From: Opitutaceae bacterium
GTDB taxonomy: Bacteria > Verrucomicrobiota > Verrucomicrobiia > Opitutales > Opitutaceae
DNA: 35,360 nucleotides
Reading direction: 5' to 3'
Assembly (NCBI GenBank): GCA_027482905.1
Contig: JAIXVP010000049.1
Location: forward strand, 1-35,360
Shown: one piece after another, positions 8,561 through 32,460 of the stretch
How positions within the stretch are numbered: position 1 is the stretch's first letter
Layout: each line of letters opens with the position of its first letter
The notes under the pieces: model-generated
Databases searched by the model: none
Told to the model about the DNA's origin: nothing
What the model saw: the letters and a program-made list of their open reading frames with translations, nothing else
Translations under genes and position numbers: made by a program

Positions 8561-9856
8561 ATGCCCCGTCCCGTCCCTCGCACCGGCCCCCTTTTCTCCG
8601 ATTTCAAAACCGCCTCCTTGCGCGGGGCGCCCGGGTTTTTCCGCCTCGGGCAGACCACCGCGAACGTCTGGTGGCTGCTCACCCCCGAGGACGAACCCGT
8701 GCTGCTGCGCGCCGTCGCCGGGGTGAACCGCCACGGCCGTGCCGGTCCCCCGCCCGTGCGGCGCAGCGCCTACGCCCGCACCATCGAGAGCCTCTACGAT
8801 CCCGCCGCGCCCGCCGCCTGGGAAAAAAGCACCGCCGCCCGCCTGCACGCCTGGGGCGTCGACACCGTCGGGCCCTGGACCGACCCCGGTCTGGTCGATC
8901 GCGGTTTCTACTTCACCATGCCGGCCGATTTTGTGCGCGCCGCCATCCCCACCCTTCACGGACCCGGGGTGCGTTTGCCGGATGTCTTCGACCCGCGCTG
9001 GCCCGATGCCGCCGCCGCGCACGCCGCCGCCGTCGCCGCGCCGTGGCACGGCCGCCGCGAGCTGGTCGGCTGGTTCACCGACGACGCCCTCGGCTGGGGC
9101 GAATCGGCTGAAAACCCGATTCCCCTGCTCCAAAGCTGCCTCAGCCTCGAACCCGCCTTCGCCGCCCACCACGCCGCGTGGGAATTCGTGCTAGCCAGCC
9201 ACGGCGGCACCCTGGAGGCCCTAGCCCGCCGCTGGGGCCTGAACCTCGTCCACCGCGAACACCTCCGCCAACTGACGCGCGAGGATCGCCCCATTGCCCA
9301 CCCCGCCTTCGCCGCCGACGCCCGCGCCTTCGCCCAGGAATTTGCCCGCCGCTATTTCTCCGCCACCGCCCGCGCCCTGCGCGCCGCCGACCCCGGCCGT
9401 CTCGTGCTCGGCTGCCGCTTCGCCGCCCCGCCCCCGCCCGGCGTGCGCGAGACCTGCGCCTGGCCCGACCTCGACGCGGTATCCTGGCGGCTGCGCGCCG
9501 GCGAAAAATTCACCGTCCAGGCCGATGCCGCCGCCGGCGCGATGCCGCAATGGATCACCGGCGGCGGCCTCGGCCACGCCGACTTCCGCCGCCTGCCCGT
9601 GCGCGACGGCACCGGCCCCACCCGCCTCGAACGCCTGCTCCGCGCCGGCCGCGAGGGCCTGGTCGCCGCGTGCCGCGACCCCCGCACCGTGGGCATCGAG
9701 TGGGCCCACTGGGCCGACGGCGGCGACGACGCCCCGCCCTTCGGCGCCGGCCTGGTCCACGCCGACGACCACGAGGCCGTCGAACACACCGAACTCCTCG
9801 CCCACCTCCACGCCCGCGCCCGCCGCTTGCACGGAGACGCGGAAAGAAGTCGGTGA
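8561..9856 (+). CDS. GH50 (agarase)-like protein lacking the expected acid/base Glu
   Basis: The 431-residue protein resembles beta-agarase/GH50 TIM-barrel proteins. The evidence is GFFRLGQ plus WWLLTP near the N-terminus, HAWGVDTVGPWTDP, GWFTDDALGWG at residues 170-180, a long helical insert, LVLGCRFA, and GIEWAHWADG with Glu380. In agarases the equivalent of residues 173-176 is usually DNE with a catalytic Glu; here it reads T-D-D-A (residues 173-176). The protein has no signal peptide and is shorter than typical agarases. It may be an inactive homologue or act on a different substrate in the cytoplasm. The start at 8561 is close to the preceding stop and matches the family N-terminus. Assignment is from recalled motifs. 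Confidence 0.65.
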   Translation: MPRPVPRTGPLFSDFKTASLRGAPGFFRLGQTTANVWWLLTPEDEPVLLRAVAGVNRHGRAGPPPVRRSAYARTIESLYDPAAPAAWEKSTAARLHAWGVDTVGPWTDPGLVDRGFYFTMPADFVRAAIPTLHGPGVRLPDVFDPRWPDAAAAHAAAVAAPWHGRRELVGWFTDDALGWGESAENPIPLLQSCLSLEPAFAAHHAAWEFVLASHGGTLEALARRWGLNLVHREHLRQLTREDRPIAHPAFAADARAFAQEFARRYFSATARALRAADPGRLVLGCRFAAPPPPGVRETCAWPDLDAVSWRLRAGEKFTVQADAAAGAMPQWITGGGLGHADFRRLPVRDGTGPTRLERLLRAGREGLVAACRDPRTVGIEWAHWADGGDDAPPFGAGLVHADDHEAVEHTELLAHLHARARRLHGDAERSR

Positions 9857-9862
9857 AGAAGA

Positions 9863-9897
9863 AGTCAGGAGTCAGGAGTCAGAATTCAGGAGTCAGC
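9863..9897. repeat. Five tandem heptamers, left arm of an inverted repeat
   Basis: Units are AGTCAGG, AGTCAGG, AGTCAGA, ATTCAGG and AGTCAGC, in perfect seven-base phase. The block begins seven bases after the stop of the GH50-like gene. Bases 9872-9896 match the reverse complement of 9968-9992 at 24 of 25 positions. Confidence 0.9.
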
Positions 9898-9936
9898 ATC
9901 GAACCTCGCACCCACTACCGCCTAACCGCATCCCGA

Positions 9937-9999
9937 CTTCCCTCTTCCGCCTTCCGCCTTCTCACTCCTGACTTCTGAATTCTGACTCCTGATTTCTTT
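9937..9999. repeat. Nine tandem heptamers, containing the right arm of the inverted repeat
   Basis: Seven-base units run without a phase break: CTTCCCT, CTTCCGC, CTTCCGC, CTTCTCA, CTCCTGA, CTTCTGA, ATTCTGA, CTCCTGA, TTTCTTT. The first half is a CTTCCGC type and the second half is the complement of the AGTCAGG type in the left block. The block ends nine bases before the apt start codon. As RNA, 9872-9896 and 9968-9992 could form a 25-bp stem with one G-U pair and a 71-base loop. The resemblance is to the short tandemly repeated heptanucleotides described in cyanobacteria. Confidence 0.88.
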
Positions 10000-10008
10000 C
10001 CAGCAACC

Positions 10009-10560
10009 ATGCCCCACCTCGACCCCGCCGCCACCATCAAGGAACGCATCCGCACCGTGCGCGACTGGCCCATCCCCGGCGTCAATTTCCGCGACGTCAC
10101 CACCCTCTTCCACGACCCCGAGGCCTTCCGCATCCTCGTCGAGACCATCGCGTGGGACGCCACCCGCCAGGGCGTGAACCTCATCGCCGCCGTGGACGCG
10201 CGCGGCTTCATCCTCGGCGGCGCCCTCGCCTACCAGCTCCACCGCCCGTTCATGCTCGTGCGCAAAAAGGGCAAGCTCCCCTTCCGCACCGTCGGCGCCG
10301 ACTACGCCCTCGAATACGGGAGCGCCTCGATCGAGATCCACGCCGACGCCTGCAAAGCCGGCGACCGCGTCCTGATCGTGGACGACCTCATCGCCACCGG
10401 CGGCACCGTGCTCGCCGCCGCCGGCCTTATCCGTTCCCTCGGCGCGGAGGTCGTGGGCGTCGCCGCCATCATCGACCTGCCCGAACTCGGCGGCTCCGCC
10501 CGCCTCCGCGCCGCCGGCCTCGACGTCCGCGCGGTCTGCAGCTTCACCGAGACCGAGTAA
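10009..10560 (+). CDS. apt: Adenine phosphoribosyltransferase
   Basis: This enzyme salvages adenine to AMP using PRPP in the cytoplasm. The 183-residue length is normal. The N-terminal IRTVRDWPIPGVNFRDVTTL stretch and the AVDARGFILGGALA segment are hallmarks of the family. The PRPP-binding motif VLIVDDLIATGGTV has its acidic pair at Asp125-Asp126. The start codon follows directly after the heptamer repeat region and shows no Shine-Dalgarno motif. Any promoter must therefore lie in or before the repeats, or the gene is read through from upstream. Confidence 0.96.
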   Translation: MPHLDPAATIKERIRTVRDWPIPGVNFRDVTTLFHDPEAFRILVETIAWDATRQGVNLIAAVDARGFILGGALAYQLHRPFMLVRKKGKLPFRTVGADYALEYGSASIEIHADACKAGDRVLIVDDLIATGGTVLAAAGLIRSLGAEVVGVAAIIDLPELGGSARLRAAGLDVRAVCSFTETE

Positions 10561-31855: not shown

Positions 31856-31920
31856 CCACATTCCGCTCCTCTCCGATTTCAGCTTTCCGCTTTTCCGCTT
31901 TCCGCTTTCCGCTTTTTCCG
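31856..31920. repeat. CTTTCCG-type tandem repeats before the membrane-protein gene
   Basis: The clear part is 31883-31920, with CTTTCCG, CTTTTCCG, CTTTCCG, CTTTCCG and CTTTTTCCG ending exactly at the ATG at 31921. Upstream to about 31856 the sequence is pyrimidine-rich and degenerate. It resembles the CTTCCGC heptamers at 9937-9957. No Shine-Dalgarno motif is present for the following gene. Confidence 0.85.
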
Positions 31921-32460
31921 ATGTCCCTCCTTCTCGCCCAGCTCCTCGTCGGCCTCGCCCTGCTCGCCCTGGGCGGAGCGCTCGCCGCCGACACCCCGCT
32001 GATACGCGCCGGCCTGCGCGCCCTGCCGCGCTCCTCCGCCGCCGCCTACGTGCTCTTCGGCGGCGCGGCGGCGTGGTTCGTCTTCCTCGTCTACAACATG
32101 TCCGACGCGGACCTGATCGTGCCCGCCCCGAAGAGCTACTACGCCGCCGCCTTCGCGATCCTCGCCGTGCTGGCGTTTTTTAACGTCGCCGAGTTCCTCG
32201 CCGTGCGCGGTCTCGCCGCCCTCATTCTCATCGCCGCCGGCCCCCTGCTCGCGGCCGGTTTCGGCCACTACGGCCTCGCCCTCGTCTACAAGGTCGCCGT
32301 CTACCTCGCCCTCACCGCCGCGCTCTGGCTGGCGGGCCAGCCCTGGCGCCTGCGCGATGCGATAGACTGGCTGCAACGCGTGCCCGGCCGCGCCCGCCGG
32401 GTCGGCGCCGCCTTCGCCGCCTGCGGGCTGGTCGTCGTAGGCGTGGCCTTCGCCGCCTGA
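31921..32460 (+). CDS. Small integral membrane protein (179 aa), function unknown
   Basis: The product has about five hydrophobic segments (near residues 4-24, 42-60, 70-87, 93-110 and 115-135, with a possible sixth at the C-terminus), joined by short loops. No known motif is visible. It lies between miaB and gmk in the same direction and ends 14 bases before gmk. The start follows directly after pyrimidine-rich tandem repeats, so either transcription reads through from miaB or a promoter lies inside the repeats. Confidence 0.78.
   Translation: MSLLLAQLLVGLALLALGGALAADTPLIRAGLRALPRSSAAAYVLFGGAAAWFVFLVYNMSDADLIVPAPKSYYAAAFAILAVLAFFNVAEFLAVRGLAALILIAAGPLLAAGFGHYGLALVYKVAVYLALTAALWLAGQPWRLRDAIDWLQRVPGRARRVGAAFAACGLVVVGVAFAA

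Follow-up and report, generated by a model that had tools for sequence, protein, structure and literature searches.

For decades, tandem repeats with a heptamer unit have been recorded in bacteria with no mechanism to explain them, and the class is poorly known. The foldback elements of Drosophila carry inverted arms of short direct repeats around unrelated middles. Described bacterial heptanucleotide repeats include the Calothrix repeats, GGGAATC of Xanthomonas and GGGGA(C/T)T of Nostoc, in a paper stating that no detailed literature on heptamer repeats existed (PMC4692102). In parallel, TAACTGA direct repeats have been described in Beggiatoaceae, Cyanobacteria and Bacteroidetes, where MacGregor discussed S1, cold-shock proteins and CsrA as proteins that might read the repeats before start codons (PMC4679880), and the intergenic REP, BIME and REPIN elements bear GTAG or CGTC tags (PMC3733652, PMC3116915).

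We analyzed a stretch of 35,360 nucleotides (the window) from a draft Opitutaceae genome (Verrucomicrobiota; 4.35 Mb, 457 contigs, 86.85% complete, 4.84% contaminated), in which the gap before apt is occupied by two facing arrays of heptads. Genes were called with a simple hexamer gene finder and the gaps were then scanned for tandem arrays; all results rest on draft assemblies and these simple gene calls. Judged from sequence comparison, the apt element is, on balance, probably one member of a dispersed class of foldback-like, non-coding intergenic repeats, built of two facing degenerate 7-bp arrays around a spacer.

Anatomy of the element before apt

A sequence-only reading of the window had described phased heptads forming an inverted repeat just before apt, and this observation is real, correct in every detail and far beyond chance. 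Direct reading gives five stop-side heptads at 9863-9897 (AGTCAGG, AGTCAGG, AGTCAGA, ATTCAGG, AGTCAGC) and nine start-side heptads (CTTCCCT, CTTCCGC, CTTCCGC, CTTCTCA, CTCCTGA, CTTCTGA, ATTCTGA, CTCCTGA, TTTCTTT), in exact 7-nt phase with no break inside either array, and both arrays are also found by Tandem Repeats Finder. The two halves of the inverted repeat (Table 1) are complementary at 24 of 25 positions, the sole exception being a G-T (G-U) pair; nine bases separate the end of the start-side array from the apt start codon, and the paired element fills the gap between the two genes. The spacer has no further copy in the window's genome. The element fits no known RNA family, Rfam giving no match above the gathering score in the window.

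The second heptad array of the window ends about 5 nt 5' of a start codon (gene at 31921); its unit type is unlike that of the apt element, yet it has the same position relative to the start and lies on the same strand.

Table 1. Coordinates of the apt element, its neighboring genes and the second heptad array in the window
Feature	Position	Strand	Remarks
Upstream gene, 431 aa	8561..9856	+	no Pfam or NCBIfam match
Intergenic gap filled by paired element	9857..10008	+	upstream TGA 9854-9856, apt ATG 10009
Stop-side arm: five AGTCAGR/ATTCAGG heptads and outer end	9860..9897	+	purine-rich in sense
Left half of 24/25 inverted repeat	9872..9896	+	
Spacer between arms	9898..9936	.	
Start-side arm: nine MTYCNNN heptads (CTTCCGC type, then CTTCTGA/CTCCTGA/ATTCTGA type)	9937..9999	+	pyrimidine-rich in sense
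Right half of 24/25 inverted repeat	9968..9992	+	
apt, adenine phosphoribosyltransferase	10009..10560	+	TIGR01090 and NF002634 above cut-off
Second heptad array, CTTTCCG/CTTTCAG	31872..31922	+	

A repeat class with a seven-base period

In 557 kb of the window's genome, about one eighth of the total, chosen regardless of repeats and with the window included, gaps contained 2, 1, 16, 2, 3, 0, 0 and 0 tandem arrays at periods 5 to 12, against at most 0.5 arrays per period in local shuffles. The excess at period 7 excludes chance, and by proportion the whole genome would hold about 125 heptad arrays. A relative (G016) gave 22 arrays at period 7, 11 at period 8 and 0-4 at the other periods from 4 to 13, in stretches partly picked around known matches. 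The search of the genome and its relatives that the sequence-only reading had proposed supports a repeat family: TCAGRAK arrays occupy about 15 loci here (none for a reversed-pattern control). They were found in 21 of the 57 genomes covered by the relatives search, a count that includes the window's own genome, and they also occur in many phyla. Further unit types in the window's genome include CTTTCCG, CTAGRAK, CTCCCCG, CATTGGT and more.

The typical copy reads (G)GAAGAAGTCAGRAKTCAG, spacer, CTGAMTYCTGACTTCTTCC, with outer ends of the form (G)GAAGAAGTCAG, so laid out that facing arrays of a degenerate 7-bp unit flank a spacer of about 40-90 nt. The arrays consist of 7-bp tandem units, dispersed and intergenic, as in heptanucleotide tandem repeats, and the inverted arms are composed of short direct repeats, as in foldback elements. 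The unit reads MTYCTGA on the pyrimidine strand; among 60 units from the window's genome, departures from the commonest base numbered 18, 1, 32, 0, 1, 3 and 2 at the seven positions (chi-square p = 1.7e-21), and variation is thus limited to two positions. Start-side units from a broader sample (the apt gap, its relatives and contig C99) fit MTYCNNN, and since CTTCCGC and CTTCTGA both do so, they can share one phase. Both arms use a single unit dialect in all pairs seen, though a genome holds several dialects.

Whole-element searches of the window's genome return arms only, with spacers unrelated between elements, and multiple near-identical full-length copies at unrelated sites, as expected of miniature inverted-repeat transposable elements (MITEs), were not found there. 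Nor did the window's genome yield a terminal inverted repeat (TIR) beyond the heptads, a target duplication or a mobilizer. A literature search with the element's long unit strings found no match, and the listing for AGTCAGG was uninformative.

Two early ideas were dropped: that stop-side arms never stand alone, as a larger sample shows several solitary ones, and that the units serve to place stop codons in all frames, a property that the CTTCCGC and ATTTTCG dialects do not share. One AGTCAGG array lies within a predicted long ORF (L051 14721-14752). Composite inverted elements with CACGAAG motifs at 8-10-nt spacing occupy further gaps (L047 8867-8988 and 11238-11327); other inverted pairs with this motif spacing (CACGGAG, CACGGAT, CACGAAG) and GTAG-type pairs occupy gaps both here and in relatives.

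Inward polarity and spread across phyla

Among 289 Verrucomicrobiota genomes, the facing TCAGRAK pattern gave 48 matches in 16 genomes, some of them neighboring registers of one element, and the outward pattern gave a single match. The viral contigs of IMG/VR, which may be host DNA, contained 20 inward stretches and no outward one. A scan of the GTDB collection found at least 120 facing-pair loci in other genomes, against an estimated chance number of about 0.004; it used the facing-pair pattern alone and is therefore uninformative on polarity. Phycisphaerae, Gemmataceae, Deltaproteobacteria, Kiritimatiellota, Nostoc, Acidobacteria, Firmicutes and others are among the GTDB matches listed. The inverted pair in one phase, which the sequence-only reading had called unusual, turns out to be a standard architecture: the apt element belongs to a dispersed repeat class, among whose copies it is ordinary, and is not a unique structure.

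Inward neighbors lay less than 150 nt apart in 159 of 162 cases at pattern-selected loci. No transposase gene was found between inward arrays, and an autonomous element with an internal gene was rejected, the only wide inward pair enclosing a doubtful ORF. In a Phycisphaerae MAG (L071, L077, L080, L108, L109), pairs have an inner stem of the CAGTGGAAAG..CTTTCCACTGAC type in common, and several lie directly beside CGCGGCCNNCGGCCGCG palindromes.

Mobilization by a Y1 (RAYT/TnpA-REP) transposase was likewise rejected for want of an association: no TCAG arrays were present at the Y1 loci examined, and G031 has arrays and no Y1 match. The arrays also show no short hairpin flanked by a GTAG or CGTC tag. 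G016 carries GTAG-type REP pairs (GTAGGGGCGCACCTTGCGTGCGCCCT, GGTAGGGCGAACCGTCCCGGTGAGCCG) together with an ATTTTCG heptad family with related spacers (L260-L279). A relative of the same genus (G010, C1:723729-725730) has three consecutive Y1 transposase genes whose equal 836 bp spacing and equal scores suggest a tandem triplication.

A heptad pair carried by a MITE

One relative, G147, shows a pair inside a mobile element. A 136-bp query around one of its pairs gave 42 matches, of which 12 span almost the whole length at 82-100%, and the aligned copies define a sharp-ended element of 161-196 bp with the TIR GAGGCKCTTGCAAAACC and the TCAG pair and spacer inside. Six of the seven independent insertions with heptads are bordered by exact 4-bp target duplications, counting two loci with shared flanks once and excluding one compound call. 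TIRs, target duplications and multiple near-identical full-length copies mark these elements as MITEs.

The genome has 153 TIR sites. Between two TIRs some 1.6 kb from each other lies the gene of a 396-aa transposase that scores above cut-off for DUF772 and DDE_Tnp_1; the models closest to it, IS1182 and IS5, score below their cut-offs. This IS1182/IS5-like element (L488 1501-3017; G147 C20:3695-5315) has the TIR GAGGCTCTTGCAAAACC, and many MITEs have the same ends. Other G147 MITEs with this TIR are without heptads; the heptad pair is therefore cargo, and its movement is explained by the TIRs, not the heptads. The left arrays of the copies differ by -14 and +21 nt, with few indels elsewhere in the element. 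Such pairs can thus be transported whole, and their arrays grow or shrink by complete heptads; what moves pairs in the window's genome is not shown by the G147 data.

Turnover at orthologous gaps

The gap before apt carries degenerate heptads on both sides in G014 and on the start side only in G011 and G009; other species have other heptads there or none. The start-side heptads align in phase over these three genomes and the window's own, and the spacer shows sequence similarity at the orthologous gap in the closest relatives only. In G005, G007 and G003 (L195, L198, L199), the palindrome GTAACCTATTAGGTTAC or a close form stands once or twice 5' of apt, where the window's genome has heptads.

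At junction C350, the window's genome carries a TCAGRAK pair, G014 a CACGGAG pair, and G011 and G002 CACGGAT pairs, with abutting genes in G003, G005 and G007 and a short remnant also among the sister species. At junction C80, relatives of the TCAGRAK-bearing window genome have CTGARAC, TTATGAT or GATGGAC heptads, or a short plain gap. Sister species having different elements or none at C350 and C80, these sites are evidently reused by different elements. The idea that the spacer is ancestral gap sequence across different-dialect species was set aside: no significant spacer similarity was seen between such species at C350 or C80, in a test made weak by one cross-locus control that scored equally high, and only the close apt relatives align.

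Stem, operator or leader

Folded in silico as RNA, the apt gap forms a stem of roughly 34 bp (-53.4 kcal/mol, z = -5.9) ending about 12 nt 5' of the AUG, which would suit an inverted pair selected as an intergenic mRNA stem, be it a terminator, an RNase III site or a translational coupling switch. The left arm of an element, however, matches its own right arm no better than those of other elements (15.0 against 16.2, p = 0.88), and the same holds in a Phycisphaerae genome (20.2 against 21.0, p = 0.75); the 24/25 match therefore needs only a shared unit dialect, and on these tests a selected stem was rejected as the main explanation. Outward pairs would fold equally well but hardly occur, and the polarity therefore needs more than pairing to explain it; G011 and G009 retain the start-side array alone at apt. 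A selected stem is thus very unlikely: the hairpin that a read-through transcript would form is probably incidental, nothing shows selection on pairing itself, and an mRNA switch role is not supported. Of the three mechanisms first offered, an mRNA stem, a protein-binding array and a selfish repeat, the last, understood as a dispersed repeat, fits best, while the stem forms on paper with arms that are not specifically matched. Double-stranded DNA binding, with the element as an operator array for a transcription factor regulating apt, would agree with the conserved unit positions and phase, but the same units also precede unrelated genes, follow stop codons and occur in convergent gaps and within at least one predicted ORF, and a 7-bp period fails to keep sites on one face of the helix; we consider an operator extremely unlikely.

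The start-side array offers more to a binding protein. Three genomes have few Shine-Dalgarno (SD)-like cores before their starts (0.05, 0.05 and 0.05, against 0.09, 0.12 and 0.06 in a control stretch), and pyrimidines increase towards the ATG in the same genomes. Read in sense, all 22 of 22 arrays nearest a start are rich in pyrimidines (baseline 0.69) and 11 of 13 nearest a stop are rich in purines (baseline 0.38), in a set that includes contigs chosen for TCAG arrays; start-side arms read NNNCTGA in sense, mostly within 30 nt of the start. The array could then be a selected leader, an MTYCNNN track taking up one OB-fold protein (a cold-shock protein or ribosomal protein S1) per unit, in which bound proteins would aid initiation without an SD site and the stop-side arm may gate it. 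Besides the scarce SD-like cores and the strand bias, the confinement of unit variation to two positions, the different unit types of sister species at the same start-side site and the heptads kept at apt in four species argue for a leader, as does CspB, which PMC4679880 cites as binding heptamer repeats with one protein per unit. Against it, the ATTTTCG family of G016 places its purine strand next to starts, and cross-phylum pairs also lie between convergent genes and further from starts. A selected leader is accordingly judged doubtful, though a protein-binding role of the arrays is possible, with S1 and cold-shock proteins as the candidates that would suit a pyrimidine-rich array. A further reading, a seven-nucleotide MTYCNNN beat before starts that is read by a protein in SD-less bacteria, with lineages repeatedly evolving or importing new dialects that keep the beat and the facing arm as a removable cover, seems quite unlikely.

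A dispersed repeat best accommodates what was observed: dominance of period 7, near-exclusive inward polarity, two-position variation, element turnover at orthologous gaps, and in G147 both MITE cargo and copy change in multiples of seven. Unrelated spacers and arms-only recovery are odd for units copied whole. Copies would spread as units by a non-autonomous route, sometimes inside MITEs, and then settle in gaps; unit-wise gain, loss and exchange would maintain each genome's dialect, and the strand next to starts would be filtered because these organisms use pyrimidine-rich leaders without SD sites. The strand bias may reflect such a filter on tolerated insertion sites, or function; array position next to starts and variation at fixed unit positions suggest some function, and the best reading is an element tolerated or mildly useful before SD-less starts.

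Comparison with known systems

To a class long noted without a mechanism, the present analysis adds rules: period 7 over other periods, inward pairing, units free to vary at two positions, strand bias at starts, dialect turnover and, in one genome, a MITE-borne pair. Should a protein read the start-side beat, this would amount to a leader signal of a new kind; otherwise the class would be an overlooked dispersed element shaping gaps and leaders across many phyla.

The apt element shares inverted arms of short direct repeats and unrelated middles with the Drosophila foldback elements, but is far smaller, and there is no evidence of a common origin. Like REP, BIME and REPIN elements, the pairs are intergenic and inverted, with variable spacers and mostly one orientation, and GTAG-type pairs are present in G016; here, however, there is no GTAG or CGTC tag, the arms are tandem heptads and not hairpins, and the examined Y1 loci lack TCAG arrays. 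The TCAG pair of G147 sits inside an IS5/IS1182-type MITE with TIR and 4-bp target duplications, whereas the apt element is without such a TIR and no target duplication was seen. The start-side arms resemble the TAACTGA repeats in their forward orientation near start codons, but their units are MTYCTGA and CTTCCGC, not TAACTGA, and facing double arrays are common here, with a pair inside a MITE in one relative. The heptanucleotide repeats of cyanobacteria and other bacteria likewise consist of tandem 7-bp units, intergenic, dispersed and beside genes of mixed function; the arrays described here differ from them in forming inward-facing inverted pairs of degenerate units.
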